Shown piece after piece: positions 15,001 through 58,700 of a DNA stretch of 64,000 nucleotides (positions within the stretch are counted from its first letter, which is position 1; each line of letters starts with the position of its first letter). Both the position numbers and the translations under genes were made by a program. The notes beneath the pieces are model-generated. The model saw only the letters and a program-made list of their open reading frames with translations, did not search any database and was not told where the DNA came from. Source of the DNA: Liolophura sinensis (lineage: Eukaryota; Mollusca; Polyplacophora; Chitonida; Chitonidae); the NCBI RefSeq assembly GCF_032854445.1, contig NC_088297.1, positions 10,254,163 to 10,318,162 on the forward strand, written 5' to 3'.

Positions 15001-18000
15001 TCAAATAAATAAATCAAACCTTTAAACTTTCCCATGATGAAATGTCCCCATACCATGACATGCCAATGTCTGGTTAGGGGAAGCCTTAGAGGACCATGTT
15101 ATTGAAGTCATGATGAATCATTCTAACAGAGTACCATGTTACTGAAGTCGTGATGAATCATTCTAACAGAGTACCATGTTACTGAAGTCGTGATGAATCA
15201 TTCTAACAGAGTACCATGTTACTGAAGTCATGATGAATCATTCTAACAGAGTACCATGTTATTGAAGTCATGATGAATCATTCTAACAGAGTACCATGTT
15301 ACTGAAGTCGTGATGAATCATTCTAACATATGCAAGAATACCCTAATTCTTCAATCTCTTCAACCGCCTCTGCAACCAGTATTTTGAAACATTCTGAGAG
15401 AACTATGGGGTGCAAAGAAATAATTTGCTCTGTTTCATGAAGCTTACATCTTCAATGACACAAACAAATCAGTTTTAGTGTCATTTTTGTAATAATGGTA
15501 TGAATAACTTCCAATGAAAAAAGTGCTTCAGTGGTTGAAAAGATTGAAGATTTACAGTAGTTTAAAGGTGGAGAAAACACAAAAATAACATAAAGTTCAG
15601 ATGAAAGAGTGTGAAACGTTATTCCTAAATGTGGCCTTCAATATTTTTTTTGATTTTTCCTTAAGGAGAAAAGGACACTTGAAAATAATTTTTGTATGGT
15701 AGGTATCTGTGACCACCTTTTGGTATTTATAGTCTTTGTTTAATAATGTCATAAATGAGGATGTAACACAGGTTTAGTATTTTTGCACTAGAATTTGTTC
15801 CTTTCAGCTAACAAATGTATTTAACCTCAATTTGCATCATATTTATATTTTTAACATGTTAATAAATATTATCATAATTTAGGTTAAATGCATACATTTC
15901 CATATAAACAACAAATTTACATTCAATTAAATTTATTAGACGAGCATCACATCCTTATTTACAACATTATTATCCAACAACGATAAATACCAAAAGTTGG
16001 TCCCAAATACCCATCATACAAAAATATTTTTCAAATACCCTTTTCTCTTGAAAAAACAAAATCCAAAAAAATATTAAAGATCATATCTGCAAGTTTTGAC
16101 GCTCTTTCATCTGATTTTGGCATCATTTTTATATTTTCTTTTCCTTAAATGTACAAGTACAAGAAGTCCTGTGTCAAAGCATGCCCATGCTTAGTCCCAA
16201 AACAAATGTAAAACCTGACAAGTTGTGACAGATCATTCATATGCAGAAGGAATTTGATATATGTGTATAGTCCCACAACCATGCCCATGCCTAGTCCCAA
16301 AACAAATGTAAAACCTGACAAGTTGTGACAGATCATTTATATGCAGAAGGAATTTGATATATGTGTATAGTCCCACAACCATGCCCATGCCTAGTCCCAA
16401 AACAAATGTAAAACCTGACAAGTTGTGACAGATCATTCATATGCAGAAGGAATTTGATATATGTGTATAGTCCCACAACCATGCCCATGCCTAGTCCCAA
16501 AACAAATGTAAAACCTGACAAGTTGTGACAGATCATTCATATGCAGAAGGAATTTGATATATGCGGATAGTCCCACAACCATGCCCATGCCTAGTCCCAA
16601 AACAAATGTAAAACCTGACAAGTTGTGACAGATCATTTATATGCAGAAGGAATTTGATATATGTGTATAGTCCCACAAGCATGCCCATGTTTAGTCCCAA
16701 AACAAATGTAAAACCTGATAAGTTGTGACAGATCATTCATATGCAGAAGGAATTTGATATATGTGTATAGTCCCACAACCATGCCCATGCCTAGTCCCAA
16801 AACAAATGTAAAACCTGACAAGTTGTGACAGATCATTCATATGCAGAAGGAATATGATATATGCAGATAGTCCCATAACCATGCCCATGCTTAGTCCCAA
16901 AACAAATGTAAAACCTGACAAGTTGTGACAGATCATTTATATGCAGAAGGAATATGATATATGCAGATAGTCCCATAACCATGCCCATGCCTAGTCTCAA
17001 AACAAATGTAAAACCTGACAAGTTATGACAGATCATTTATATGCAGAAGGAATTTGATATATGCGCATAGTCCCATAACCATGCCCATGCCTAGTCCCAA
17101 AACAAATGTAAAACCTGACAAGTTGTGACAGATCATTTATATGCAGAAGGAATTTGATATATGCGGATAGTCCCACAAGCATGCCCATGCCTAGTCCCAA
17201 AACAAATGTAAAACCTGACAAGTTGTGACAGATCATTCATATGCAGAAGGAATTTGATATATGTGTATAGTCCCACAACCATGCCCATGCCTAGTCCCAA
17301 AACAAATGTAAAACCTGACAAGTTGTGACAGATCATTCATATGCAGAAGGAATTTGATATATGTGTATAGTCCCACAACCATGCCCATGCCTAGTCCCAA
17401 AACAAATGTAAAACCTGACAAGTTGTGACAGATCATTCATATGCAGAAGGAATTTGATATATGTGTATAGTCCCACAACTATGCCCATGCCTAGTCCCAA
17501 AACAAATGTAAAACCTGACAAGTTGTGACAGATCATTCATATGCAGAAGGAATTTGATATATGTGTATAGTCCCACAACCATGCCCATGCCTAGTCCCAA
17601 AACAAATGTAAAACCTGACAAGTTGTGACAGATCATTCATATGCAGAAGGAATTTGATATATGTGTATAGTCCCACAACCATGCCCATGCCTAGTCCCAA
17701 AACAAATGTAAAACCTGACAAGTTGTGACAGATCATTCATATGCAGAAGGAATTTGATATATGTGTATAGTCCCACAACCATGCCCATGCCTAGTCCCAA
17801 AACAAATGTAAAACCTGACAAGTTGTGACAGATCATTCATATGAAGAAGGAATTTGATATATGCGGATAGTCCCACAACCATGCCCATGCCTAGTCCCAA
17901 AACAAATGTAAAACCTGACAAGTTGTGACAGATCATTTATATGCAGAAGGAATTTGATATATGTGTATAGTCCCACAACCATGCCCATGCCTAGTCCCAA

Positions 18001-21000
18001 AACAAATGTAAAACCTGACAAGTTGTGACAGATCATTCATATGCAGAAGGAATTTGATATATGTGTATAGTCCCACAACCATGCCCATGCCTAGTCCCAA
18101 AACAAATGTAAAACCTGACAAGTTGTGACAGATCATTCATATGCAGAAGGAATTTGATATATGCGGATAGTCCCACAACCATGCCCATGCCTAGTCCCAA
18201 AACAAATGTAAAACCTGACAAGTTGTGACAGATCATTCATATGCAGAAGGAATTTGATATATGTGTATAGTCCCACAACCATGCCCATGCCTAGTCCCAA
18301 AACAAATGTAAAACCTGACAAGTTGTGACAGATCATTCATATGCAGAAGGAATTTGATATATGTGTATAGTCCCACAACCATGCCCATGCCTAGTCCCAA
18401 AACAAATGTAAAACCTGACAAGTTGTGACAGATCATTCATATGCAGAAGGAATTTGATATATGTGTATAGTCCCACAACCATGCCCATGCCTAGTCCCAA
18501 AACAAATGTAAAACCTGACAAGTTGTGACAGATCATTTATATGCAGAAGGAATTTGATATATGTGTATAGTCCCACAACCATGTCCATGCCTAGTCCCAA
18601 AAAAAATGTAAAACCTGACAAGTTGTGACAGATCATTCATATGCAGAAGGAATTTGATGTATGTGTATAGTCCCACAACCATGCCCATGCCTAGTCCCAA
18701 AACAAATGTAAAACCTGACAAGTTGTGACAGATCATTCATATGCAGAAGGAATTTGATATATGTGTATAGTCCCACAACCATGCCCATGCCTAGTCCCAA
18801 AACAAATGTAAAACCTGACAAGTTGTGACAGATCATTCATATGCAGAAGGAATTTGATATATGCGGATAGTCCCATAACCATGCCCATGCCTAGTCCCAA
18901 AACAAATGTAAAACCTGACAAGTTGTGAGAGATCATTTATACGCAGAAGGAATTTGATATATGCGGATAGTCCCACAAGCATGCCCATGCCTAGACCAAA
19001 GACAAAGATTAAACCTGGTGAGATGGGCTTTATGCGTAAGAACTCATCAAGAGAAGCTCTCCTTATGGTAGGAGAGAGGGTGGGTCCAAGAGGTGGCCGG
19101 ATGTACGCAGACACTGAAGGAAGAACAGCACACAACAATCAGGACTGACAGTCAGAGAAACAGAACGTTAACATGAACACAGTTTCAATAGCCCTAACAT
19201 GACTTCTCAGAGAGACATGTACTACTTTCATTGCTTTTTGGTTCGAGTTTTATTCCATAGTCAAGGATATTTCACTTACACGACAGAGACCAACAGTGTG
19301 GTGACACGGCCACCATTATTCATTTCGACAAATGCGTTTATTTTATACAAGGCTTGAGAATAGAGTGAGTGCTTGGGGTTTAACGTCGTTCTCAACAATT
19401 TTTCAGTCATATGACGACGACTTGAGAATAGAAAATACCCTGACTGCATGTGTAGTTCAAAAGTTGGGCAAAGGTGAAAATAGATACATAAACTAAAAAT
19501 AGATGATTTCATCTAAATATCTTACTTGTGACAAATTTTATTGCGATATTTGTACTTTTAAGCCCTGGCATTTCATACAATGGACCGGATTCCAAAAAAT
19601 GACTTCAAGGTGTGCTTTTTGAAAGGATGTTGGCATTGGTGTGTAGCTGCTGTGGGAGATTATTTTGAAGAAGTCAATTTTAAATTGGATTAAATGATTT
19701 TCAATAAAACTTTTCATAGGCTGGTTCAGGTATTTCTTTTGAAAACCTCAGATACTGTTATGAATTAATGCTTTTCTGTGGTAACAGTCTCATCCAAATC
19801 ACTTTTCTTGCTCTTTTCTGACTTTTATAAATTTTCTTAAATCAATATTGTTTTTAGCTTAGCCTGTGATAATTGTTTAAAGGGAAACACTGATAAGATG
19901 AAGTGAAGTTCGTGAAGTATAATGAATGAATGAGACATGATTATACATGAAGATCGTAAGATTGTATAAACTAATGATGAGACAATGGTGGACAGGTACA
20001 AAAAAAAAAAAAAAGGCTAGAACGATGAAAATACGAGCACAACCTATAAAACAAACAAAAAAAAACAACAGATGAAAACAAAAAGTGGTCTCTAAACAAT
20101 AAAAATAAGTCACTGTATAACATTGAGAAACGTTGAAAAGTTAACACAGACATACAATTAATGGTACTTACAATAGTCGCCTAAAGTTCACCACGACTGT
20201 ATGTGGGAAGGTCAGGCAGCAACCTGCGGATGGTTGTGGGTTTCCCTCCGGGCTCTGCCCGGTTTCCTCCCACCATAATGCTGGCTGTCGTATAAGTGAA
20301 ATATTCTTGAGTACGGCGCAAAACACCAATCAAATAAATAAATAAACTGAAGTTCACCATTTTTCAAGATATATATTTTGCTTGATTCTGACTGATTCAT
20401 GCACCTGATCATCACAAATATCATTTTCTAAAATTTGTAATAAAATTAATTCCTTATCAGATAAACTTAAATGTTGGCATGAGAAGTATCATCTCACATG
20501 CTTCTGAAAGTGTGTTTTTCCATGCCAAACTTTAACTGAAATACAGTACTCATTACATGTAGGCGTTTGAAAGATTAAATTAGCAAAATAAACCATCAAT
20601 TTCTCTGAGCAGCTTTGTTGTAGTCAAACAATGCAAATTTATTGACTTACTTGTGCATTCAACTCTTTGATATATGCAACTTACATATACGCCTCAATGT
20701 TTTACCTGGTATAGAACCCGTCCTTGGAGGAATTGGTGCAACACGAAAGGTAATATAACATCATTGTGTTGTGAACTGAGCACCGTGCTCTAAGGTGCAA
20801 TTATTTAATCTTGAAAACAACAACAGAAACAACAAAATCCAACAAGTAGGCTTATCTAACCAATTTTCTTGTCTGATTTGCGATATACCACTTACTTATA
20901 TATACCTACCTGGTCTTATTGGATCATCAGATTCTGCGGGTTTCTTAGATTTGGTTCGCTTTGTGTTTGCCATCCAAGGTCGATCATAGGAACGCCCCAC

Positions 21001-27299: not shown

Positions 27300-28742
27300 A
27301 TGGCAGATGCAAGTGCATCCAAGAAACAAGGTGGGTTGTATTATGCATGAATAAACTTCATTAATTTTGTTGGAGCTTTATGGGAAAAATAATATTTCAA
27401 ATTGAAGATTCTTTAAACAAAGTTCTGTAAATGTTGTAATGTTTGTTATGTAAATAACATCGTGACCGGTGATTAAAACTAAACTGTCCTTAAAATAAAA
27501 GTCTTTTCTGTGGTAAAAATCAATGCTAATGTGTGTATCAGTTTTTGGTTGGCTTTATCATGAAATATTGATAGGTATAACGCAAGGAAATTCATTATTT
27601 TTCTTGGTTTTCTGGTTCTGTTATTGCTGTTCTGTGAAATCATGATAACAATATTATTTAATTATTATTTATTAATTCCTGACATTTTGTGTTTTCTTTT
27701 TTTTTTTTAATGATCAAATCTTCTCACACTTTTTTTAAGCTTACAAATGTTTCTGTTTTAGGGAGACGCCCTGTAAGAGGAGCCTCCCAGGAGAGACTAA
27801 AAAGTCGCAGAAAAATGCCAAGACAAGATCAAGCCCCTTCTGAAGAGGCAGATTTTATCTCCTCAGATACACCATCTGGAATGGAAGTGGGGTCAAACCC
27901 AGGCACAGCCGATATGTCCGCCTCAGAAGCCCCAGATATAGCAAGTCCACAGACAGGCAATATGTCAAGTGTGTCAAAGCGAGGAACATCAGCAGAGATG
28001 GAGAGTTCCAGGCCAGCATCAGCAAGGTCAAGGACAAATGTGAGCGTGTCATCTGTGGATGGAAGGTCAAAATCAAAAGGGAGTGTGTCATCTGTGGATA
28101 GATCACTGCAGGTTTGGAGAGCAATATTTAGCCTAGGTTTATATTAAATCATTGATTCTTTGACGTCATTGAAAGAAAAACACTAAAAAATATAACCCCG
28201 TATGCAGTAGCAAACATCGAGATATGGAAAAAAACATTAAGTTTTTAGCTTAATGATAGTATAATTTGTGAGCAAGCCTTTTTGTTATTCTAAAACCAAG
28301 CAGAAAAGAGCCTTGTCAATAGTATATTTTTAATTTTTCTCAATGTGTCATACATGTGGTATAAGTATTACATGTATTTACTGTAAAATTGTAATCTCAC
28401 TGTATATTTAACCATTGTTCTCAGTTTTTGTAACTTTAAAGAAAATTGCTCTTTATATTTAAGTTCCCCTTGGCAGAAGTCATACCAGTTATACTGCTAA
28501 AAAAAAGAAAATCAAATCTTTCAAAGGTTTTTTGCATTTTTATATAGCATTTCATTCCTTGATGAACACGTACTTTTTCTTCTGATGTGTTGACCTTGAC
28601 CTTGATTGTCCACAGGACAAGTCCGAGCTTAACTTTACTGACTTCACCAAAATGAACCCGAAGGATTATGGGATTGAGTTTAACGAAGAGGAGATGCTTT
28701 ATGGTGAGATACCCTTTGAACCTAACTAAAACTTAGTATGGT

Positions 28743-31700: not shown

Positions 31701-34700
31701 ATTGTGTTATATAGGTGATCATTAGGATTTTATTGAAGTTGATTGAATGTTTAAACCAAATTCCAAACACACTTAATTGTCTTATGGTTTCATCAAATAC
31801 ATCAATGTATTCATGATAGGTGGGTTTCAGAAGTCCGTTGCCGAAGGGACCTTTCTAATGGAACCGCATGTGCACAACTTTTTCTGATACTTACTATATC
31901 CAAATTATTAACTTCAAACTTCAAATGTTAGGTTTGTTTGTCATTTGCTAGACATTGGTAGTTTGCTCCCAAGCCTTCTGTCTTTCTCCACCCGTAAAAC
32001 AGAGCTGCAGTATGGAGTATAAGTGACAGTTTTTAGGTATGTTCAGTCAAATTAACACTGGTGTGTGTGACATTGGATTTATCTGTAATCACCCTTAACC
32101 TCCACTTTCTATTCTCAGCTGGACGCTATGTCCTCACCGCCTCGCTTTACAACCGTTTGGGAGGTCATGTGATGCGGTGGTCAAAGTTGAAGGGTCAACT
32201 TTGGTCAGGGGCCACTCTGCCACTTTTCCATGAGGGAAACTTCTCAAACGTTGAGATGAAGGTGAGTTGTACAGAAAACACGACTCTAGCTGTCTAGTAT
32301 CCATGCGTCTAAACAGGCATTCACACACCAGCCCACAACCCAGGTCAATAATCACAAAGCTAATTTCAAACATGACATTCAACACAAACGACCCAAGAAC
32401 TGAGAAAGTATATGATGTGCAAAATTTATGGCTGATTCATGCAAAGCTATCCACAGTTCATGTCTACACTGTACTAAATTGGTCAGTTTTTAAGGAAACG
32501 TTTCATCTGTATGGCTGTAATTATTGAAGAAATCAAAATTAACCAATGTGTGTGTTTGGTCAGTAATTGCTGCCTTCTTGCTGTAATACGGTTTTTATCA
32601 TGCGTGTTTGCATTTGAAACTAGAGTGTACTCCTAAACGCTCATTTGCTCCTGGCTTATGGTAACCTGAAATGGCTAACGGTAACGTGAAATGGCTAATG
32701 GTAACCTGAAATATGAAATGGCTAAAGGTAACATGAAATGGCTAATGGTAACCTGAAATGGCTAATGGTAACCTGAAATATGAAGTGGCTAAAGTTAACA
32801 TGAAATGGCTAATGGTAACCTGAAATGGCTAATGGTAACCTGAAATGGCTAATGATAACGTGAAGTGGCTAATGGTAACATGAAATGGCTAATGGTAATG
32901 TGAAATGGCTAATGGTAACGTGAAATGGCTAATGATAATGTGAAATGGCTAATGGTAACGTGAAATGGCTAATGGTAACGTGAAATGGCTAAAGGTAACA
33001 TGAAATGGCTAATGGTAACCTGAAATGGCTAATGGTAACCTGAAACGTGAAATGGCTGAAGGTAACATGAAATGGCTAATGGTAACTTGAAGCGGCTAAT
33101 GGTAACATGAAATGGCTAATGGTTACCTGAAATGGCTAATGGTTACCTGAAATGGCTAATGGTAACATGAAATGGCTAATTGTTATGTGAAATGGCTAAT
33201 TGTTATGTGAAATGGCTATTGGTAACATGAAATGGCTAATGGTAACTTGAAATGGCTAATGGTAACCTGAAATGGCTTATGGTAACATTGATTGAAATAG
33301 ACCCATTGCAGGAGCTCTATTTTAAGCAAAAGCAATATTCATGCCTTTTGTTAGACGCTCTAATTTTCATCAGGTAATTTTCTGGTGTTTTGAAATAAGT
33401 TCTTGTGTCTTATCCATGTACGTGTTAAACAAAAATTATAAATAACTAAAAACATGTACTTATTCTTAGATTTGTCTGAGATACCTGGCAGACAAGGTTT
33501 ATTCTGGGGGGTTTTTCCGCTCATAAACCTGACTGATGTCACTCATGGAGTTAAACACTAGTAAAAAAATGAATTACCATAGATGACCTAACAATTCTAC
33601 CACAAAGGAGCATGTTTGGAGGCAAATAAATGTCATGAGATATTATTTCTGTTGCTAAAATTCACATTTTCCCAGTTGGATATCATCCTACCTTCCAAAC
33701 ACCTCTCAAAGCACCTTTCTCAAATCAGTAGAACATCCAGAATCTGGAAAAATGAGTAAACGAAAACGAAATTTTAGGTCATTTAGGGTAAATTGAGTTT
33801 ACAAAAACTGTGTCAAGATTTTAATAAGGCATATTGACCTTACGTTTAATTATGTCTGTGTTCCTGCCACCAGGTTGACCAAAATGTGTTTACAGTTCTT
33901 CCCTCCAAACCGTCGCTGCGTCCAGGCATGGCACTGGTCTTTGAACTTTTCCTGCTACGTGGCTCCGTTGTGCAGACAGACCGCGTTGTAGCCTGGGGGG
34001 CGTTCCCCATCTGTGACGGGCAGTTTGAAGTCATCCAGGGAAAGTGAGTACCTGCCGACATTTTAGTTCTTGTCCAGTCTCACTACAAGTAGTCAGATCT
34101 AGTAGGCAGACCCTATGCTGACCAAATTGTCATTAACTACAGGTTTGTGCCAACCTTTATGATTACCCACAAGACACTTTTGTTTGAAACGTTCAAGAAA
34201 AATTTGACAAGACAGAGAAATGGACTGCTAGCTAATTTGATCATAGAAGTTAAATAGCATGGGTGGCAAGTTTTCAGCCCAAAGCAGCACCCAGCTACTT
34301 CTTCACTTGGAGGCGTAACCCTAGCTAAAATCTGTTCCCCATCTTACCATTAATTAAGGTATAATTTAAAGTTTTGGTCAGTCAACTGAGGTAAAAACTG
34401 GTAGATTATGCCCAGCAGCTATGGCTTTACACACATCTACACAAAAAGAATATTAATTAGTAAAGGTACTAATTAATATTATAACATTTGTTCACTTTTT
34501 ATGTCAAATACTAAGTTCTGAAAGTCCTTTTTTTTTTGTTCCATTTCGCTCAGGTACAAATGTGCGTTGTTGCGAGGAGAAGTTGACCCAAACATCCAGA
34601 CATATGAGATGATGGAAAGGCTAATGAATTCTGAGCTGGACCATTGGCTGTGTAACCTGTACTTTGAGATCATCAGGCTTCCCAGGTAATAGGAGTTGTT

Positions 34701-37472
34701 TAAGTAACGAACATCCTCTGGAAAGTTCACAACTGCTAGTCATATTTCTGCCGTAATTTACAAGTAATGAGGGGCCTGCTTGGTTACAATGTGCCAGCAC
34801 GATGCAGTGACCCAGGAGCCTCTCACCAATTAGGTCACTGTGACTTCAAATCCAGCTCATGCTGGCATCCTCTCTGGCCGTACGTGGGAAGGTCTTCCAG
34901 TAATCTGCAGATGATCGTGGGTTTCCCCAGGGCTCTGCCCTGTTTCCTTCCACCATAATGTTGGCTGCTAGCATATAAGTGAAATATTCTTGAGTGCAGC
35001 TTAAAACACCAATCAAATAAATAAATAAATATTAGTAATGGATTGGTTCTTAGACCAGTGTGAACCTGTGCTCAAAATATAATCCAAATCCCTGCATAAA
35101 TTTCAACTTCTGCTCTGCTGTTATCCTCATTGTTCCTGTATTGTTTTTTTTTATTTATATGTATGTATATGTAATGTATTTTTTTTATGTACATATTTCT
35201 TTTTCTGTATTAATTGCACATATCTTATGTATATCTTGGCCAGTTTTCAGATATGTGGAAGGCCAGAAGGAACATATTTGGTATGCAGGTTGTTTCTCTG
35301 TATTAACACTACATATATCAGTTTGTTTTCAGATGTATGGAATGGCAGAAGGAACACATCTGGTGTGCATATTGATTGTTTCTCTGTATAGACAATTAAC
35401 ATATATATCAGTCTTTGTTCAGGTATATGGGAGGCCAAATGGAACACATCTGGTTGTGCAGGTTGTATGATTCTCTGTATAGACAATTAACATATATGTC
35501 AGTCTTTTTTCAGGTACATGGGAGGCCAAATGGAACACATCTGGTTGTGCAGGTTGTATGTTTCTCTGTATGGACAGTTAACATATATGTCAATCTTTTT
35601 TCAGGTATATGGGACGCGAAATGGAACACATCTGGTGTGCAGGTTGTATGATTCTCTGTATAGACAGTTAACATATATGTCAGTCTTTTTGCAGGTATAT
35701 GGAAGGCCAAATGGAACACATCTGGTGTGCAGGTTGTATGTTTCTCTGTATGGACAATTAACATATATGTCAGTCTTTGTTCAGGTATATGGGACGCGAA
35801 ATGGAACACATCTGGTTGTGCAGGCTGTATGTTTCTCTGTATAGACAATTAACATATATGTCAGTCTTTTTTCAGGTATATGGGAGGCCAAATGGAACAC
35901 ATCTGGTTGTGCAGGTTGTATGTTTCTCTGTATAGACAATTAACATATATGTCAGTCTTTTTTCAGGTATATGGGAGGCCAAATGGAACACATCTGGTTG
36001 TGCAGGTTGTATGTTTCTCTGTATGGACAATTAACATATATGTCAGTCTTTTTTCAGGTATATGGGAGGCCAAATGGAACACATCTGGTTGTGCAGGTTG
36101 TATGTTTCTCTGTATGGACAATTAACATATATATCAGTCTTTGTTCAGGTATATGGGAGGCCAAATGGAACACATCTGGTTGTGCAGGTTGTATGATTCT
36201 CTGTATAGACAATTAACATATATGTCAGTCTTTGTTCAGGTATATGGAAGGCCAAATGGAACACATCTGGTTGTGCAGGTTGTATGTTTCTCTGTATGGA
36301 CAATTAACATATATGTCAGTCTTTGTTCAGGTATATGGGACGCGAAATGGAACACATCTGGTTGTGCAGGTTGTATGTTTCTCTGTATAGACAATTAACA
36401 TATATGTCTTTTTTTATGGGAGGCCAGAAGGAACATATCTGGTATGCATGTTGTTTTTCTGTATTATTGGTGCTATGCACAGTATATCTTGGCCTGTTTT
36501 TAGGTATATGGGAGGCCAGAAGGAACATATCTGGTATGCATGTTGTTTTTCTGTATTATTGGTGCCATGCACAGTATATCTTGGTCTGTTTTCAGGTATA
36601 TGGGAGGCCAGAAGGAACATATCTTGTATGCATGTTGTTTTTCTGTATTATTGGTTCCATGCACAGTATATCTTGGTCTGTTTTCAGGTATATGGGAGGC
36701 CAGAAAGAGTATGAAGTAGAGCTTCATTTCTCATCAGCACTGACCAGCTTCCCTGACCGCATCAAGATTGGATGGGAAGAGTATAAAGATGGTGAGAAAC
36801 CAGAGTTAACCGGTTCACAGAGCGGCCTTAGTGCTCCAGGACCCAGTACCAGGTAAGATAATACAATAATTTTAAATTTCAACTTTACAACATTATGATA
36901 ATTTCCCTTTGATCTATAATGCTCTTGTTTTACGGCGCTTGAGGTGTACCATAATTTTTCTAATTTTTGGGATAGATGTCAGCAGTGCTGAAAGCAGACT
37001 TTTACATTTCTTTCCCAGGTTTTCAGAAAAGTAAAGGAAGGAGTATGCTGTTCACTAGATGATCTAACCATACGAGAAAAAAGAAACTAAATACTGCTGC
37101 AAAAATTACTTGTATACAGGCCAAAAAGAGCAGACCAGGCATCCCAAAAATTAGAAGACATAGGGTAGTCAGAGCATTGTAACATGAGTAGGTACTTGCT
37201 ATACTGAAATGTGCTATGTGCTATACTGAAAATTGTTCACAAACTTTAAAAATCTACTGCATTAAATATTTTAGGAAATAAAATTCATAATGATGATTGC
37301 ATGTACATCTATCTGCCTGTGATAAATTGAATTGATTAGCCCTCAAGTGTCATTAAAACAATGATGTCCCCCCACACCAGCGTTACGGTCACCATAATGT
37401 TGTAACGCTAAATCTCAAAACAATGTAAACACTGTTGTATGTTCTAATAATTCCCGGGTCATTGTGTGTGTG

Positions 37473-37516
<44 letters not shown>

Positions 37517-40500
37517 ATAATGCTGGCAGGCAACACATGTGTTGATGTGGCAAACTGTTACACAATAAAGAGACTAGTGAGATGTTCATGTAAATATGTA
37601 GGCCTTTTGGGGCAGAGTACAATTTTCAGTTAATGAATAAAGTATTAAATTAAATTGTAATTATAACCATTATTTATCTCATAGTCCAGGGATTCCAGCA
37701 CCAGTGTATTTAGTGAATCTTTTAAACAAACTCTTAAGCCTGTGTCATTTATTGCAGCAACTCCAGTATTAGTGTGCATAGCAGCTCCTCAGGGACTGCC
37801 CCAGCCAAGTCTGAGGCTTCCACCAGGAAAGTCAAACTCTCAGAGAAGGTATGGAACCTCAGTCTGTGGAGAAAACATTTATAATTTTAAATCATTTTTA
37901 ATTTTAATAATAATTTAATTTTAATAATTTTAAGAGAACACAAAAAAGAAAGAAAATGATATCTTATAAAACTCTGCAAGATCTTAAAGAAGAAAAGAAA
38001 ATATAATTTGGTGTGGGGGTATTTGGGACCACCTGTTGTTACGATGGAAGTACAGTATTGGGATGTATGCATGTCTGATAAATTTATTTTGAGTTTGATG
38101 TTGATCTTACTTTGGGACATTCCAATCATATTGACATTTTTGATATATACTTAAATATTAGGAGCCTCCATGGCTCAGTTGGTTAGCATGCTAGAGCAGC
38201 GTAATGACCCAGGAGCGTCTCACCAATGCAGTTGCTGTGAGTTCAAGTCCAGCTCATACTGGCTTCCTCTCCAGCCACCATGAGCATGGGAAGGTCTGCG
38301 AGCAACCTGGTCATGGGTTTTCACCCAGGCTCTGCCCGGTTTTCCCCCCACCACAATGCCGGCTGCCATCGTATAAGTGAAATATTCTCAAGTGCGACGT
38401 AAAACACCAATCAAATAAATAAATAAATAAATACTTAAATATTTTTGTAATTCAGATACCCACAGTACAAATTTAATTTCATGTGCTCCTTCCTTTTGAA
38501 GGTATGCATCGTTTTTGTGTATTCCCCTCCAAAATGTTTCTCTCCCGACCTGCCAAAAAGGTCAATTATAATAGTCACAAATCTAACCTTTCATAATTGT
38601 TTATCAACTGAAACTGAAATAAAATAAATCAAAAGTCGAACCAGTTTAATGTTTAACAACAAAATGAATGTGCACATGTTGACTGTTCAGGAAATAAAAC
38701 TACAATGGATCTGAAGAAAAGGAAAAAATGTGATTTCAGGGCATCTCCAGCAGTCTGATACCTAGACCTTTGCTTGTTGTCCTGGAATAGTTGACCGGTG
38801 ACCATACCAATTTCACATTGCTTCCTACGCACCTGGGTGGTCACTTGATCAATTTTCTACAGAAGTGGTATGCTGTATTTAGCTGGTAACTGCCCTTTTA
38901 TTAACCCTATGGGCATTTAAGTTGAGAGCATACATGATCTAAAAAGAATTCTTGTCATCATTCTTGTATATGTATGTCAAATTCAAAGTATGTTTGTTTT
39001 ATTATGTTATAATACAGAGGACAGATCCCTTAGGCCAGATAGCCAAAGCCCCAACATTCAACTCTCGACTCTGGCACAAGGACAAGAAACTGAAACTTGA
39101 GGACAGCTCTGAAGAGAGCGATATAGACGAAGAGTACAGCAGGGTGGTTGAGCGGGAGCGTGAGTTCAAACCTGTGTCTGGCACACCTGGCATGTACTAT
39201 AAGGTAAGTGAGGGTAACTTAGAAGACAATGACAGGGAAGAAGAGTACAGCTGAGTGGCTTAGAGAGAGCACGAGTGCAAACCTGTGTCACGCACACCCG
39301 GTGAGTGTGAGTTCAAACCTGTGTCACGCACACCCGGTATGTACCATAAGTTGAGGGAGTTCAAAACTGTGTCACGCATATATTAAAAGTTGAGCAAGGG
39401 TAACTTAAAAGACAGTGACAGGGAAGACAGGTACTGGGCAGTGCTTTAGAGAGAACAGGAGTTCAAATCTGTGTCTGGCACATCCGACATGTAATAAAAG
39501 TTGAACAAGAGTAACTTAGAAGACAGTGACAGAGAAGAAGGCACAACCTAGTGCTTCAGAGAGAGTTGGAGTTCAAACCTGTGTGTGGCACAACTGGCAT
39601 GTATTATATGGTGAGTATGGGAAAGTTAGAAGACAGTGACAGAGGAGAAGGGGTAGTACAACTTAGTACTTCAGAGAAAGCGTGAGTTCAAACCTGTGTG
39701 TGGTACAAGAGGCATGTACTATAAGGTAAGCATGGGTGATTTAGAAGAATGTGTCAGAGAAGAAGGTATAGCCAAGTTTTTCAGAGAAAATGCGATTTCA
39801 ACCCTGTGTGTGGCACACCTGGCACGTACTAATACATGTAAGTCGAGCAAAGATAACTTAGAATAGAGTAACAGGGAAGAAGGGTACAGCCAAGTGCTTC
39901 AGAGAAAATGCAAGTTCAACCCTGTGTCTGGCACACACGGCATGTAGTATAAGGTGAGTAAGGGTAAACCTTTGACCCTTATTGGATCTTATAACACCTG
40001 TATACACCTATTTATTATTACAGCCTTTTGTGGAAAGTGAGGAACATTGTTTTTTGATCTGTCTCTTCTTCCGTTTGTCTGTCCATCTGTCTATTTCCAA
40101 AGGACAACTGCAAGAAATATTAACGTCATAGTAAATTTGAATATCTGTCCAGTCCATGCATAAGTTGTGGATATTTATTGAATACCTTGATTCCGTTTGG
40201 TGATTTGTTTCTGTGTAATTACTGCTTCAAATATTGCCTGAATTCTGATAAAATTTTATGGGCATGTTGACTTTGTGGTGCCATAGATCTAGTTTGAAAG
40301 TGAGCCGCACCCGTACATACGTTTTGGATATTTTGTGATACCGGTGTATAAATTGTCAGGACAGTGCTTATTTTACCTATGACAGAAACACACACCTGTT
40401 TTTATTATCAAAGCCAAGCAGCTTAAGTTATTCAGGAATAAGAATTCCTCTTATCCAAAAAATGTTCAGAATTTAATTCAGAAATGCTAAAAATGACAAA

Positions 40501-43500
40501 ATTATGAGTGTGTGGTATAGTTTCCTCTTTTTCATCCCGGTGTCTGTCTCATCCCTGGTTATTCAGTCTGCTTTGAGGTTTGTATCCCAAGGTTTTGAAA
40601 CTTTTGTTTTTGCCTGTGACAGAAACACCTGTACAGCCCTCAGGATCGGTACTACCGGGACCTGTACTCCATGTTACCCAAGAGCGGCGTCCTTGACAAG
40701 AAAAAGAAAAAACGACCCTTGACCCACGTGGAGGAGCTGGAACAACACTCGCTGTCCGTGCAGTGAGTACTGAGAATTCTTTAGCCCTCGCCTTAGTGAA
40801 ATGCGAGGAATATCATTTCTCTCCATTCCTGAGAGTGGCACTCTTTGGTATCCATGCAGTAACTCCTCCACATAATGTCCGATTAGGATAAAATTCATTG
40901 AATACCACTTTTCTTCCACCAATACGCTGTGCATGTCAGTTTTGCCACACGTGGAGAAGTTAATCATTAACTTGCCAAAGGTCAGTGGTTTATGCCATGC
41001 ACTCCAGTTTCCTCCACCTCAAAAACTGAGTGCCATTGCGTTGTGGAAAATCCTTGAGTATGCCATCAAACAACCATCAAATATCTAAATAAACCGAACC
41101 CTTCATGAGACTTTGTTGTAAAACTGTGTTGACCCCAATAAACATCTTTAGTGAATTGCTGTAGGTAAGTGGCTTACCCTGAGCCCTCTGGTTTCCTCAA
41201 CCTGTATAATTTACTGCCATCGTGCCGCGGCTAAGTCAGTTAGCGCGCTAGCGCGACATAATGACCCAGGAGCCTCTCCCCAATGCAGTCGCTGTGAGTT
41301 CAAGTCCAGTTCATGCTGGCTTCCTCTCCGGTACGTGGGAAGGTCTGACAGCAACGTGAGGATGGGCGTGGTTTCCCCCTGGGCACTCCCCGGTTTCCTC
41401 CCACCACAATGCTGGTCGCCGTCATATAAGTGAAATATTCTTGAGTACGGCGTAAAACACCAATCAAATAAACAAACAAACAAATCGAACACCCATCGTG
41501 TAATGTATGAGTGTGGAATCAAACAACAATCGGCTATCTAAATAAACTGAGCCCTTTACAAGGTTTTGTTGTAAAACCATTTTCTCCTCTAAAATACATA
41601 TATCTGATCATATTCCAGGCCTGCGTTCTCTGGCAAGGGCCGTGTAGCGGAGCCTGGTCGTGAGAAGCTGACATACCTAAGTCGTCAGTTCCTGGCGGAG
41701 ACAGGCCTGTCTCAGTGGAGGAGCAGCGAGTTCTGGGGGATGATTGTCATCTTCACTCTCATCTTCTTCATCAGGATGTACCTTCATTACATCGCTCAGT
41801 GGGGCTTCCTCCATGCCATTGCTATCCCTGTTAACAAGTGAGTCATTAGAAGGCACATAGTTAAAGTTACCTGAAAATCAGCTCTGAAATAAAAAGTTTT
41901 ATTAAAGGAAAAGGTGCATAGTTTTCATTCTGAGGCATGTATATATTTTTTTAAAGTACCCATATATTTTTGGTGTATTTTTGAACAAAATATTGCATTT
42001 TTGGAAATGACATTAATGATGAACTTATTAATAGCCTAAAGGATCTACCTTAGAGGCCCCATGATGGCTCTCCCCCCAAATAAAGTTGTTGTGTCAGCCA
42101 CCACTGTTGAAGTCATGGCTGCACGTTACTTAAGCTATTTTGCCCCAAGACAAAACCTAAGAATTTTTTTTTGTACTGTTAGGACACATCTAAAAATGGA
42201 TGAAAACTGTATTATTTAATTGAATCTTTCAAGAGACATACGTGTTTGTCACCCACTCACAGGGAGTACCCTATTTGTAATTGTAGCAGGTAGTATTTAG
42301 TTTCTTGTTTCTCATAGGGTTAGACTATCTAATGGACAACATACTTATATCTCTACTTATCCAAAAGCTGGGAAAGAAATGCAGTATTCTGCTTTCAGCA
42401 CTACAAATATGTGTCTTAAAAAAAGAAGAAGAATTAGGGTGTGTTAAATACATACATGTATATGGACATGAGATGTGTATCTCACAGGGTTGGGGATGAG
42501 CTGGGCTGAGTAAGGCATATCAAAGTGGACCATACCCACTGTGTACTACCCATTGCGTGAGCTGGAAATAGTGTAACAGCTTTATGTATTTGTTGTCAGT
42601 CAGTACCTACATACCCACTGTGTACTACCCATTGCGTGAGCTGGAAATAGTTGTAACAGCTTTATGTATTTGTTGTCAGTCAGTACCTACATACCCACTG
42701 TGTACTACCCATTGCGTGAGCTGGAAATAGTGTAAACAGCTTTATGTATTTGTTGTCAGTCAGCACCTACATACCCACTGTGTACTACCCATTGCGTGAG
42801 CTGGAAATAGTGTAACAGCTTTATGTATTTGTTGTCAGTCAGTACCTACATACCCACTATGTACTACCCATTGCGTGAGCTGGAATAGTGTAACAGCTTT
42901 ATGTATTTGTTGTCAGTCAGTACCTACATACCCATTGTGTACTACCCATCGTGTGAGCTGGAAATAGTGTAACAGCTTTATGTATTTGTTGTCAGTCAGT
43001 ACCTACATACCCACTGTGTACTACCCATCGTGTGAGCTGGAAATAGTGTAACAGCTTTATGTATTTGTTGTCAGTCAGTACCTACATACCCACTGTGTAC
43101 TACCCATTGCGTGAGCTGGAAATAGTGTAACAGCTTTATGTATTTGTTGTCAGTCAGTATTTAGCTGTGACGAAACCTCAGATTTTTCACATATTTTTTA
43201 ACTTAAGAGAATATAACTTTTGCAGAAAGTTACAGCAGTTGTGAATTTGCCCTTGTTTATTTCATGTATTTGGTTATGAGGGACTCGTAGAAGAAAAGAT
43301 CTTCCACATCTTATTTAGAGTTTATACTGTATTTTTACCCTCAAAAAATAATCCTGTTTCTCTTCCAGCTTTGAGTTCCGCGCATACACTGTCAACCTAA
43401 ACTACCAGAGTTCCCTGTTGTCCACGGGACAGGAAATCGGCCATCGTTTGTTCTCGGACCACTGGCAAACATCGTGGTTCTCTGCTTTCTCGTGATTCTG

Positions 43501-46500
43501 GCTTGGCTGCTGCCCAAGATGTTTGGCTTCTTTCCGGACATTTTCTCAAAGTTTGTTCTGGGCTACGGCATAATGACCTTCTTTGACCCTCTTCTGATTG
43601 TCATTGTGGACTGTTGTATGCAGGTGAGATTGACAACTCACCCACCTCATCCCTACACACAAAGTCTGGCATTTTATTAAGGGCAGTACCGCACGTATAC
43701 ATGGTTAGTTATTGACAACATACGACCGAAAAAATTGACGTCAATAAAATGGCTTCAGGGTCCTACTACTAGGTATATGGCTGGTCCCGTAAATGAAAAC
43801 AAATACTCACAGTACACATGTTTCCAGATATGACGAAATTGCATGAAACAACAGCAGAGTGATGTACCTTTGAATGTGACATCATGGCTTTTTTGTCATA
43901 GCTAAGGATCAGTCTGTCCCTTTCAACATGGATTGGTGTATAGAACTTAGAAACTAACTGAATGAGATTAGATTAGTATATTCCTTTCTGTTGTTTTATC
44001 TGAAATTTGTTGAACAATAACTTACCAAGACATTACATTGGCAAGCAGTATTTTTACCGTGTTACATCAGAAATGAAGTGATTTGAAATTTTTGACCTAA
44101 GTTTAAGATCACTTTTTGAATTATGTCCTTGGGATGGGTTTTGGATGCGAAATATTGCAAAAATGATATATTTCTCCCCATAGTTTTATCTTTATGTTTC
44201 TCTACCATGCTGTAAAGCTGAGACATCATTTTGTATGGGGAATTACGTCATATTATGCATTATGAATTATGTCATATTATGCATTATGAATTATGTCATA
44301 TTATGCATTATGAATTATGTCATATTATGCATTATGAATTATGTCCATATTATGCATTATGAATTATGTCATATTATGCATTATGAATTATGTCATATTA
44401 TGCATTATGAATTATGTCATATTATGCATTATGAATTATGTCATATTATGCATTATGAATTACGTCATATTATGCATTATGAATTATGTCATATTATGCA
44501 TTATGAATTATGTCATATTATGCATTATGAATTACGTCATATTATGCATTATGAATTATGTCATATTATGCATTATGAATTACGTCATATTATGCATTAT
44601 GAATAAAATTAACGCTAAAGTTTTTCTGATGAGAAATTAATCACACCTCACAACGAACTCTTAAGGGACTTATATGAGGGATAAATCAATCAAGGTGTGT
44701 CGTCTGGAAAAATGCTGGTGGATTTGATTTATTTATTTGATCGGTGTTTCACGCCGTACTCAAGAATATTTCACTTATACGACGGCGGTCAGCATTATGG
44801 TGGGAGGAAACCAGGCAGAGCCAGAGGGAAACCCAGGACCATATGAAGGTTGCTGGCAGACCTTCCCACATTCGGCCGGGAGAGGAAGCCAGCATGAGCT
44901 GGACTTCAACACAGAGCAACTGCATTGGTGAGAGGCTTCGGGGTCATTACGATGCGCTAGCCCACTAACCAACTGAGCCACGGAGGCCCCCAAATCCTAG
45001 TTGAAATACAGTACTCAAAGACTGATTATTCTGCTGAATATCTCAGTGACCTTGTTCCTGTCCATTTACCCATTACAGCGTTTACCTCAACCTTGAGGCA
45101 CAGAGGCCGTGGCTGATTTCGCTAAGCTCTGGTGGCACTTTGAGCGGTCGCAGGGCTCTGGTATTTCAGGGGTATTCATCACAGTCTTCCTGTACGTCTT
45201 CACAGCCTTTATGTCCGCTTCTATCCTCTACATGTACTTCCTGCGGTAAGTCTAAAAGTTTTGAATTGAAGGAATTTTATAGAATTTTTATGTTACTAAA
45301 GTAAACAAATTCAAATGTTTGGTCTTCACGGGGAAAAGAATATGAGCTCAGGCCCTTAGGCCATGTTGGCGTAAACGCAACTAACCTGGAGCTCTCCGGT
45401 GTGGACCCAGTGAACAAAATAAAACAGCCCTTTCAGCAATGCTGTAAATAAATATTCAATAACTGAGCGTATTACATGTGGGATATTGTGTACAAACTAT
45501 ATATGATGTGATTTAATTATTTATTGTTGGTTAGCGCGCTAGCGCAGCGTCATAACCCAGGAGTCTCTCACCATGTGGTCGCTCTGAGTTCAAGTCCAGC
45601 TCATGTTGGCCTCCTCTCCGGCTGTACAGCAACCTACGGATGGTTGTGGGTTTCCCCGGGCTCTGCCCGGTTTTCTCTCACCATAATGTTGGGCCACCGT
45701 CGTATAAGTGAAATATTCTTGAGTTATAAATAAATTATTTATTTTTTTAATTATTCATAAATGATGTGTTTTTTTTTTAGTTGATTTTAAAAGCATTTTG
45801 TCCTGATATTATTGTTCATACATGGAAAACCAGGTTCTAACTGCATGTACCTCTGGCAAGAGTATCCACATATGGGATGTTAAACCCTAAAGTCATTCAT
45901 TCATTCATTCATTCATTCATTCATTCATTCATTCATTCATTCATCAAATATTAAGATTGTTAAGAGAAAGGCTTCACTCATGTATACTTATACAGATGGA
46001 AAGAAATGCAATTTCAAAAACACGAAACAAATAGGGACTAAAAACTGTATCGGAAAATAGCTTTATAGTATTTCTTTTTTTCGTCTTTATTGGTTTGGAG
46101 CTCTGGGTCCACAAGAATGATAATCGCAGAGAGAGGACATAGGTATGGTAATAGTGACATACAAAATATCGTACAACAAATGTACAATAAAAAAATGTTG
46201 TACGCCACTTTGTGAAACTGGGCCCTGGTCTTTTGCTATTAACGGCAACAAATGCAAATAATGGTAATAAAATAAGTGATGTGCATACATCTTAGCCCAC
46301 AGGAATTCATTTATTAATGGTATTTAATTGGTATTTTATGCCCTATTCAAGATATTTCACTTACATGTACACCACCTTAGCCACAGGAATTCATTTATTA
46401 ATGTAATTAATTGGGTATTTTATGCTGTATTTAAGATATTTCACTTACATGTACACCACCTTAGCCCACAGGAATTCATTTATTTATTTATTTAATTGGT

Positions 46501-53204: not shown

Positions 53205-55075
53205 AAGTCTATTGTAGAGGTGATTCCTTGTATGTTCAACCGCCTTTTGTCCCAGTGGTTGTCAAGTCCACCTGTATAGGTGATTCTTTATGTGTACAAC
53301 CGGCTGTTGCTCCAGTGGTTGTCAAGTCCACCTGTATAGGTGATTCTTTATGTGTACAACCGGCTGTTGCTCCAGTGGTTGTCAAATCCACCTGTATAGG
53401 TGATTCATTGTGTGTACAACTGGCTGTTGCTCCAGTGGTTGTCAAGTCCACCTGTATAGGTGATTCTTTATGTGTACAACCGGCTGTTGCTCCAGTGGTT
53501 GTCAAGTCCACCTGTATAGATGATTCTTTGTGTGTACAACCACCTTTTGTTCCAGTGGCTGTCAAGTCCACCTGTATAGGTGATTCATTGTGTGTACAAC
53601 CGCCTATTGTTCCAGTGGTTGTCAAGTCCACCTGTATAGGTGATTCATTGTGTGTACAATCGCCTTTTGCTCCAGTGGTTGTCAAGTCCACCTGTATAGG
53701 TGATTCATTGTGTGTACAATCGCCTTTTGCTCCAGTGGTTGTCAAGTCCACCTGTATAGGTGATTCATTGTGTGTACAACCAACTGTTGCTCCAGTGGTT
53801 GTCAAGTCCACCTGTATAGGTGATTCATTGTGTGTGCAACCGCCTTTTGTTCCAGTGGTTGTCAAGTCCACCTGAATAGGTGATTCTTTGTGTGTACAAC
53901 CGCCTGTTGTTCCAGTGGTTGTCAAGTCCACCTGTATAGGTGATTCATTGTGTGTACAACTGCCTGTTGCTCCAGTGGTTGTCAAGTCCACCTGTATAGG
54001 TGATTCTTTGTGTGTACAACCGCCTTTTGCTCCAGTGGTTTTCAAGTCCACCTGTATAGGTGATTCATTGTGTGTACAACCAACTGTTGCTCCAGTGGTT
54101 GTCAAGTCCACCTGTTTAGGTGATTCATTGTGTGTACAATCGCCTGTTGTTCCAGTGGTTGTCAAGCCCACCTGTATAGGTGATTCATTGTGTGTACAAC
54201 CGCCTTATACTCCAGTGGTTTTCAAGTCCACCTGTATAGGTGATTCATTGTGTGTACAACCGGCTGTTGCTCCAGTGGTTGTCAAGCCCACCTGTATAGG
54301 TGATTCATTGTGTGTACAACCGCCTTTTATTCCAGTGGTTGTCAAGTCCACCTGAATAGGTGATTCTTTGTGTGTACAACCGCCTGTTGTTCCAGTGGCT
54401 GTTAAGTCCACCTGTATAGGTGATTCATTGTGTCTACAACCGCCTTTTGTTCCAGTGGTTGTCAAGTCCACCCGTATAGGTGATTCATTGTGTGTACAAC
54501 CGCCTTTCGCTCCAGTGGTTGTCAAGTCCACCTGAATAGGTGATTCTTTGTGTGTACAACCGCCTGTTGTTCCAGTGGCTGTTAAGTCCACCTGTATAGG
54601 TGATTCATTGTGTGTACAACTGGCTGTTGCTCCAGTGGTTGTCAAGTCCACCTGTATAGGTGATTCATTGTGTGTACAACCGTCTTTTGTTCCAGTGGTT
54701 GTCAAGTCCACCTGAATAGGTGATTCTTTGTGTGTACAACCGCCTGTTGCTCCAGTGGTTGTCAAGTCCACCTGTATAGGTGATTCATTGTGTGTACAAC
54801 TGCCTGTTGTTCCAGTGGTTGTCAAGTCCACCTGTATAGGTGATTCATTGTGTGTACAACCGCCTTTTGCTCCAGTGGTTGTCAAGTCCACCTGTATAGG
54901 TGATTCATTATGTGTACAACCGCCTTTTGCTCCAGTGGTTTTCAAGTCCACCTGTATAGGTGATTCATTGTGTGTACAACCAACTGTTGCTTCAGTGGTT
55001 GTTAAGTCCACCTGTGTAGGTGATTCATTGTGTGTACAACCGCCTGTTGCGCCAGTGGTTGCTCCAGTGGCTGCA
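53205..55075. repeat. 60-bp satellite, 31 copies, no length variation
   Basis: Unit: TGATTCATTGTGTGTACAAC, CGCCTTTTGCTCCAGTGGTT, GTCAAGTCCACCTGTATAGG. Every unit is 60 bases over 1.8 kb. The minus-strand frame (HNESPIQVDLTTTGATGGCT) is open over two blocks of about 310 residues broken by one TAA near 54204. No splice sites or promoter mark it as a gene. Confidence 0.97.
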
Positions 55076-55795: not shown

Positions 55796-58700
55796 TTAAT
55801 AGTTGTGCTCTCTGCCATATCGTTGAACAAATGACGCCCATAATTCTTTGCTGAGTCGTTTCAGCTCCGGTGAACACTTAGAACTTTTGGTGGCCAGGAA
55901 TCGGATTTTGTGATAAAGGGATTTGTGAATCTCCACACCTCTGGGATTCTTTCGGTACTTAGTTTTCAGTTCCTGTAGATCTCGCATACAAAACCTTGTA
56001 AACAGCGCCCTTAAGACATCGTTTCTTTCTTTGTCTATCTGTGTCCGCATGATGACCCGGACGTCGCTCTGGCGTATATACTCCAGTGGGGTATCGGCAG
56101 CGTACCTCTGCTTGATTTGTTCCAGTTGCACATCGCCTATCCTCGTCAACAGACGCTTGATCTTGTCGCCCAGTTCAGTCCCCTCGTACAGGTCCTCGTT
56201 GGCTTTCAGTTTACCGAAGACACCTTTGGTCACGTCGTAGGTCAGAGGATCTTCAGCAATCTTTCGCTCCGTGTCCTCCACGAATTTCTCGAAACACTTC
56301 TTCCGGAGTTTTTTGAACCCGGCTGACCATTGGATGATCTGGTCGGTCCGACACAATTCCATAGCATGAACCTCGTTCTCGTCCAGATCCTCGAGATTTC
56401 GGCATTCACCGCGCTGGCACTTTTCGGCTATCTGCTTTAGTACAGTCTCCACGGATTTTTTCAGCCGATCTGACCTTCTCTCCGTCGCGCTAGGATCCGT
56501 CTCTCTTATTATCGCCTCATCCACAGAGCTCAGCAACTTCTTGTACAAGTCGTCGCTCTCGCGCACCAGCCTTCCGAGCAAAGCAAACAAAAATAATACA
56601 CATAAAACTTAACACTTATCTGTTTTGTTTTATTGTTGTATGTCATGTTTTTGAGCATGCACGTGCAAATTAAAATTAGCACATTAAATCTTAGTTAGGT
56701 ATAAAATAAAATTTATTAATCTATTCATTTCCCCGAAATGGTCTGTGTGTTAATGGAAACAGTATCATGTCATTCAGAACTAAATTAATTATAGGTCTTG
56801 GCATTCTGCACGAAGTATAGGCCTTGGTATTCAGCACGAATTATAGGCCCTGGCATTCTGCACGAAGTATAGGCTTGGCATTCAGCACGAAGTATAGGCC
56901 TTGGTATTCAGCATGGAGGAGCCTCCGTGGCTCAGTTGGTTAGCGCGCTCACCAATGCAGTCGCTGTGAGTTCAAGTCCAGCTCAAGCTGGCTTCCTCTC
57001 CGGCCGTACGTGGGAAGGCTTTACAGCAACCTGCGGATGGTCGTGGGTTTCCCCCGGTCTCTGCCTGGTTTCCACCCACCATAATGTTGGGCGCCGTCGT
57101 ATAAGTGAAATATTCTTGAGTACGGCGTAAAATACCAATCAAATAAATAAATAAATAATATTCAGCCCGAAGTATATGCCTTTGCATTCAGCACGAATTA
57201 TAGGCTTTGGCATTCAGTCAAATTATAGGCCTTGGTATTCAGTATGAAGCATAGGCGTAGGTATTCAGCACGAATTATAGGTTTTGGCATTCAGCACGAA
57301 GTATAAGCCTTGGTATTCAACACAAATTATAGGCCTTGTCATTCTGCACGAAGTCTAGGCCTTGGTATTCAACAAAAAGTATAGGCCTAGGTATTCAGCA
57401 CGAAGTATAGGCCTTGGCATTCTGCACGAAGTATAGGCTTTGTCATTCAGCACGAAGTATAGGCCTTGGCTTTGGTATTCAGCACGAAGTATAGGCCTTG
57501 GCATTCAGCACGAATTATAGGCCATGTCATTCTGCACGAAGTCTAGGCCTTGGTATTCAATACAAAGTATAGGCCTTGGCATTCAGCACGAGTTATAGGC
57601 CTTGGTATTCAGCACGAATTATAGGCCTGGGCCTTGGTATTCAGCACGAATAATGGGCCTTGGCATTCAGCACGAGTTATAGGCCTTGGTATTCAACACA
57701 AAGTATAGGCCTTGGCATTCAGCACGAAGTATAGGCCTTGGTATTCAGCCCGAAGTATGGCCTTGTCATTCAGCAGGAAGTTTAGGCCTGAGCACATGGC
57801 CTATGTCCCCAACGTTGGAAAATATGGTCGAATTTAACATGTACTAATTAACCGCTTCGGTGGCCAAACAGTCAGAAGGTCCACCTCGCAGTCGGGAGAC
57901 CTGGGATCAAGCTTGTTGCTGCCTCGCTTGGCGCCCAGCACTGAGAGGCTAGAGCAAGGAAACAGGACTGGTTGGCGAAGTGTCAGTATATAACGTGACT
58001 GTGTGGAGTGTCATGTCTGGTGTCGTCGGCATGACTCTTCAGTATCCGCATCATGTATACTCCTGCCACGAGAAGACATATAGTAGGTTATACATTCACA
58101 CAATCTGATGACTCCTCATCGTTATATGACCAAAAAGCTAAGTACGCCATTAGTATATATGTCCTTCGTTAGTATATATGTTGTATTACAAAAGAAATGT
58201 ATACAAGGATCCCCTATGCTTAGACCTTACTGACCTGGAGAGTTTATCATAGAGAACGAAGAGAACACTGACGTCTGCGGCTGCGTACTGAATCATTTCC
58301 GGTGTCAGAGGTCGAATGGCCCAGTATGCCGCTGTCAACATCCAAGCTTTCTGCAAAGTACACAATAATTACGCTTTAATATGTCACATGTCATATATGA
58401 TATGTCACACACAGGTTCATGTGAAATAGATATAGTTATAGCGCGACATGAATGAGTGATTTAATTTATTAATTTATTTGATTGGTGTTTTACACCCTAC
58501 TCAAGAATATTTCACTTTTATACGACGGCAGCCAGCATTATGGTGGGAGGAAACCGAGCAGAGCCGGGGAGAAACGACACACGACCACCCGCAGGTTTCG
58601 GCAAGACCTTCCCACTCGAGTGATTTAAGGGCTTGCGTTTCAATGGGTAGAACACAAGAGGCTGCGTGCCCAAACCCAGCCATAGCCCAAGCTACATGTA

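Follow-up and report, generated by a model that had tools for sequence, protein, structure and literature searches.

A minisatellite across an intron–exon boundary, probably inert, in a molluscan gene

A tandem array in which an intron–exon boundary has been copied inside an animal gene spans approximately 35197–36705 of the window (the whole 64,000-nucleotide stretch of DNA analysed here) and comprises 16 units plus a decayed unit 0. The array is very probably a minisatellite spanning the boundary (a 'mirage'), inert and removed whole with the intron, and micro-exon use of its units is unlikely. As a repeat, the array is far beyond chance. All 16 + strand occurrences of the anchor motif GAACAYATYT in the 64 kb fall within the array (35270–36615); the units are spaced 81–92 bp apart, and Tandem Repeats Finder resolved the array into two blocks, with periods of 91 bp (12.1 copies) and 92 bp (3.2 copies).

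The exon model of the host gene was drawn by eye, with open frames and splice signals as guides. The array lies between two modelled + strand exons: an upstream exon (34554–34685, placed by frame and donor score) that carries the open frame YKCALLRGEVDPNIQTYEMMERLMNSELDHWLCNLYFEIIRLPR and ends in CAG GTAATA, and the exon at 36688–36852 (placed by frame and splice signals), whose first 18 nt form the last copy of the repeat. Splice sites were scored with matrices that are approximations of frequency tables, and 12 donors and 11 acceptors from 14 modelled exons were scored after exons without a clear site had been dropped. The exon at 36688–36852 has an acceptor scoring 9.45 and a donor, CAG GTAAGA, scoring 11.2, and the donor of the upstream exon (7.04) is the weakest of the 12. 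Two modelled acceptors scored low (29549, 4.0; 30462, 2.5) and may be misplaced. Among the best candidates scored, the gene and the array were each found once in the assembly (609 Mb, 632 contigs), and the protein of exon 36688–36852 matched one place. The C2-like label given to this region by the initial annotation was not borne out, as no Pfam family matched the joined 251-residue region at E values up to 5; for the gene, no Pfam family scored above the cut-off and no PDB match was credible, the weak matches having E values of 0.099 or more. The host gene may resemble OFCC1/ojoplano, which we take as a lead only. The part of PMC3248446 used here leaves this resemblance unsettled.

Further features of the window were observed in passing. 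One modelled exon contains a 39-bp in-frame duplication (28024–28099), and within another (43369–43623) the protein-like sequence seems to switch frame, so that two exons or a wrong model are possible. On the − strand, a 270-codon open frame at 55796–56608 resembles a coding exon of another gene. The window also contains a 60-bp repeat in about 31 copies (53213–55061) with long open stretches on both strands, which on the + strand would encode the 20-residue repeat CIGDSLCVQPPVAPVVVKST; a 100-bp repeat of 28 copies with 97% matches (16180–19017); and an apparent short interspersed repeat with an AAAT-type tail, present at 34750–35030 and at several other places on both strands.

Each unit of the boundary array consists of approximately 74 nt of intron and the first 18 nt of the exon, about 92 bp in total. 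Copy 16 is identical to the real exon over these 18 nt and diverges after GCCAGAA, and the intron sequence preceding the exon is 97.5% identical between copy 16 and the real edge over 81 nt. The initial claim of an upstream tandem multiplication of the acceptor and the beginning of the exon was therefore upheld. A tandem duplication of the whole exon was considered and rejected; the units carry 18 nt from the start of the exon, and similarity fades beyond them. At its left end (all units are on the + strand), the array begins with the decayed unit 0, placed by local alignment at about 35197–35250, which represents the intronic part of a unit and ends in TTTTCAG; its local alignment score against the 92-bp unit was 45, compared with a maximum of 34 across 500 mononucleotide shuffles. 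The array thus starts slightly earlier than the position 35241 first assigned to it. By unit comparison, units 1–2 (35251–35422) are diverged boundary units whose exon-like piece begins with A rather than G. Units 3–13 (35423–36411) form a homogenised block of ~91 bp, recognized by the repeat finder and by pairwise comparison, in which units 3–12 are 91–100% identical. Unit 14 (36412–36503, placed by anchor positions) lies at the joint of the 91-bp and 92-bp blocks and lacks the acceptor AG, so that it offers no entry at that place; units 15–16 (36504–36687) are of the 92-bp type and, by unit comparison, the nearest to the real exon edge. The last copy is the start of the real exon, running to 36705.

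These features agree with those of a mirage: the unit spans the boundary, with the edge of a modelled exon as one of the copies; the centre is homogenised, and units 0–2 and 14–16 have diverged from it; and many copies carry AG and GT signals. A homogenised centre with diverged ends is usual in minisatellites. The sequence suggests the following history. A segment of ~92 bp (~74 nt of intron and 18 nt of exon) would have been duplicated in tandem, and slippage or unequal exchange may then have raised the number of units to sixteen and homogenised those in the middle. All copies except the last would have turned intronic, with the exon edge preserved intact as that last copy. Because the edge stayed intact, the mRNA need not change, and such duplications could therefore be tolerated. 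The intron would most likely be removed from 34685 to 36688, and the array would have no function.

The units nevertheless carry the signals on which a different proposal was built. An acceptor AG is present at the expected position in 15 of the 16 units (CAG in 14, TAG in one), and a GT follows at +30 in all 16 (GTATGC in 4, GTGTGC in 3 and GTTGTG in 9). None of the sixteen 30-nt pieces contains a stop in the phase of the 34685/36688 junction, and each piece would keep the frame. The initial annotation was also right that an acceptor, 30 nt and a GT follow one another in most units, but the exact strings it gave are less widespread (GTATATGGGAGGCC in 7/16, TTTCAG in 8/16). From these signals it had proposed, as one possibility, a tunable set of micro-exons, while correctly marking splicing as inferred. 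According to this reading, some of the pieces are optional, real 30-nt micro-exons of ten residues each that give a length-variable segment. That 15 of the 16 units combine an AG, an open 30-nt piece and a GT, and that no stop has arisen in the pieces, speak for it. The comparison with the real exon, however, suggests that the '30-nt exon' is a composite, its first 18 nt copied from the exon and its last 12 nt intronic, the latter being the start of the next repeat period.

We assessed how often such an arrangement occurs by chance. The + strand has 399 acceptor-like sites beyond the array; a phase-preserving open GT followed 210 of them at a distance of 9–60 nt and 159 of them within 30 nt; on the − strand, where the array was not masked, the counts were 172/379 and 125/379, respectively. 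The array's own acceptor-like sites exceeded this base rate (22 of 23 with an in-phase open GT), although these sites are not independent. About 21% of the window falls within the tandem arrays listed for this test, and in the other arrays 139 of 169 acceptor-like sites had an open GT under a more permissive rule that allowed any phase; by array and strand, the counts ranged from 0/1, 7/20 and 11/21 up to 14/14, 28/28 and 31/31, with 13 of the 19 rows complete. Because the units are copies of one another, the 30-nt phase amounts to one observation, and we did not accept 'sixteen independent phase-preserving units' as an argument. Preservation of the phase is not beyond chance, being shared by descent and set against a base rate of 210/399. 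The GT at +30 would belong to the intronic sequence with which the next repeat period opens, and its phase would be a matter of chance that was fixed once and then copied.

The strength of the signals was uneven. Fifteen array acceptors scored 5.0–9.5, six of them at 8.8–9.5, close to the real acceptor. The donors at +30 scored −0.27 in the nine GTTGTG units, which corresponds to the 53rd percentile among all GTs in the window, and 2.87, 4.61, 6.84 (two units) and 6.98 (three units) in the remainder. None of the 16 reached the weakest of the modelled donors (7.04–12.03, n = 12), although the three at 6.98 (units 2, 5 and 6) nearly did, and the contrast is a favoured one because the modelled donors were picked among consensus-like sites. 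The array acceptors are thus mostly fair and the +30 donors mostly poor.

Nor did the 30-nt pieces display the conservation expected of a coding repeat, a candidate that we rejected. Variable columns numbered 4/30 in the piece and 8/61 in the rest of the unit for units 3–12, and 13/30 and 29/61, respectively, for units 1–16, indicating that coding constraint on the pieces is no greater than that on the spacer. Five of the 14 distinct codon changes in the pieces were synonymous and nine were not; among all single changes of the consensus, 19 are synonymous, 66 are not and five give stops, so that ~22% would be expected to be synonymous (19/85 non-stop changes). The apparent excess of synonymous changes over this expectation is slight and, to that extent, counts against the inert reading.

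In favour of some use of the copies, units 2, 5, 6 and 15 pair acceptors of 5.0–9.1 with donors of 6.8–7.0. In addition, a boundary duplication in potato gave a new intron (PMC4974935), and tandem repeats at human exon–intron boundaries may form novel introns (PMC2812944), as far as the parts of these papers used here describe; the use of a copy is therefore possible in principle. Against micro-exons stand the nine GTTGTG donors, the lack of extra constraint and the high base rate of in-phase GTs, and we consider it very improbable that some of the pieces are real micro-exons. We give a small chance, only slightly better than that, to a variant in which the boundary minisatellite is turning into exons, with units 2, 5, 6 and 15 spliced in at a low level and an individual's unit number setting the count of ten-residue YMGGQxEHIW segments. 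If true, such low-level splicing of the units would be intron and exon birth caught in the act.

The well-preserved acceptors raised the alternative that the copies act as decoys that lower or tune the inclusion of exon 36688–36852. The 15 surviving acceptors are comparable to the real one (5.0–9.5 versus 9.45), the upstream donor is the weakest of those modelled, and a transcript entered at unit 15 or 16 and not spliced again would meet a stop at approximately 36714 or 36719. However, the exon of the real acceptor has a good donor (11.2), whereas the +30 donors of the array acceptors score at most 6.98, and the sections of the amphioxus papers used here report or suggest that splicing is undisturbed by such arrays (PMC3087553, PMC3902484). 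We therefore regard a decoy role as improbable, if the least so of the alternatives.

A third possibility was that the copied AG GT junctions serve as recursive (zero-length) splice sites for stepwise removal of the intron. AG stands immediately before GT at 13 of the 16 units (3–13, 15 and 16) and at the real exon, and scored as donors these junctions reach 5.9 (CAG GTATAT), 6.2 (unit 4) and 3.7 (unit 15). Against this, position +5 is A rather than G, the intron is just 2 kb long, and AG GT is a copy of the exon's own first bases, which together leave recursive splicing with scarcely any probability.

The inert-minisatellite reading was strengthened by boundary arrays elsewhere. Within the same gene, edge-copy comparison revealed a modelled exon (39019–39203, + strand) that is followed by multiple copies of its 3′ edge and donor, forming a second boundary array on the donor side (39204–39967, + strand, from edge matches; copies including the edge, 39129–39967) with units of ~110 bp. 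This edge had eight direct matches and no inverted match. In total, direct edge copies in the flanking 3 kb were found at 2 of the 14 modelled exons, and inverted copies at none. Random placement of the gene's six arrays put two or more of them on exon edges in 42% of trials; targeting to exon edges is therefore not needed. A comparable structure is reportedly found in the human interferon-induced transcript 6-16 (IFI6), in which a minisatellite gives multiple splice donors; it is said to multiply a splice site as the first array does, but on the donor side.

We also searched the genome for myosin-head matches, scoring 65 of 213 first-look candidates and listing 81 matches, of which 70 were used in the edge test and the 11 weakest were left out. 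The edges were those of the profile match plus 60 nt rather than annotated exon ends, and loci on the − strand were turned. Direct edge copies within 1.5 kb were found at 11 of the 70 matches and inverted copies at none. By reading, seven of the 70 were tandem at the edge (L023, L031, L036, L050, L055, L067 and L075), with L036 affected at its acceptor and the other six at the donor; L055 had a single extra copy adjoining the edge, and L075 had 15 direct matches in units of ~31 bp. L029 and L044 had single displaced edge copies. At L065 and L070, the copies matched nearly the whole of a short myosin exon, with neighbours 78–81% alike, and are probably alternative exons. Two muscle-myosin exons best matched PDB entries 3i5f, 1dfk, 1dfl, 1b7t, 1kk7, 1qvi, 2ec6 and 2os8, ahead of Myosin-7 (among the best 60 of 97 matches); we take these chains to be those of squid and scallop, in keeping with a molluscan genome.

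The acceptor-side locus, L036, has the layout of the array studied here. It repeats TTTTCAG together with the exon start, and a phase-preserving GT lies at +24 in 3/3 copies, the real exon included. This exon encodes a highly conserved region of myosin, in which tolerance of a variable insertion would not be expected. The acceptor/GT layout can therefore occur without meaning, which further argues against micro-exons. Because similar arrays are found at several other exons, the array is probably repeat DNA removed with the intron rather than a set of selectable tiny exons. Together with the weak donors, the lack of extra constraint and the commonness of in-phase GTs, this led us to regard the tunable micro-exon set as unsupported.

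The closest known counterparts are the mirages of amphioxus, described in the part of PMC3087553 used here as minisatellite-like duplications of intron–exon boundaries in globin genes and also in Adh3. In the globin gene BflGb6, the repeat joins the 3′ end of an intron to the 5′ part of the following exon, giving many copies with AG/GT signals; homogenisation does not extend to the boundary units, arrays can lie at both edges of an exon, and the copies could serve as cryptic sites (PMC3087553). The present array shares with them the unit of acceptor plus exon start, the AG/GT copies, the diverged ends and the occurrence of both edge types in one gene. It differs from BflGb6, which has 3 and 6 units of 150–160 bp, in having 16 units of 81–92 bp and in belonging to a mollusc; moreover, the amphioxus mirages were supported by RT-PCR and a second haplotype, whereas the array is known from the sequence of one assembly. 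In lancelet PGBD5, tandem repeats of 60 and 108 bp lie on splice sites, and globin, Adh and troponin C are cited as further cases; a gene model had annotated the repeats as an exon, which the authors omitted, noting that it had no EST or mRNA support (PMC3902484, in the part used). Although PGBD5 has 2–7 copies and is another gene in another phylum, its repeats at splice sites are mistakable for an exon, and the present array sets the same trap.

Other systems are more distant, as far as the passages cited describe them. In a potato RdRp gene, an intron was gained by tandem duplication across an intron–exon boundary (PMC4974935); as here, the duplicated stretch runs from an intron into the exon that follows, and the upstream copy supplies the donor. 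In potato, however, a novel intron was observed, with a donor situated in what had been exon, whereas the GT of the present array lies in intron-derived sequence and is unlikely to be used. Human genes in segmental duplications contain internal tandem repeats with units averaging 30 bp, repeated ~4 times (PMC2812944), which likewise include minisatellites at exon–intron boundaries, with cryptic sites and novel introns in some cases; paralogues and transcripts were compared there, whereas our array was read from genomic DNA. Schistosome micro-exon genes contain exons of 3–81 bp among introns of up to 5 kb (PMC10526429); these exons are very short, like the 30-nt pieces, but do not form a homogenised minisatellite at the edge of a single exon. 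Earthworm metallothionein, where minisatellites lie in introns and duplicated exons are missing from the transcripts (PMC12783039), was considered and set aside as not close enough. A keyword search of openly licensed papers turned up none listed as reporting mirages in molluscs, a result with little bearing on the wider literature.

The array is probably inert by itself, and the frequency of boundary arrays in this genome is of more interest than any single one. The edge copies at 7 of 70 myosin matches and 2 of 14 exons of the gene suggest that a molluscan genome is rich in mirage-like structures; in the literature found, such structures are named in amphioxus, and the present array extends their anatomy to a mollusc. 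Each boundary array is a natural test of splice-site choice among near-identical sites, and such arrays might give rise to new introns and can mislead automatic gene models.
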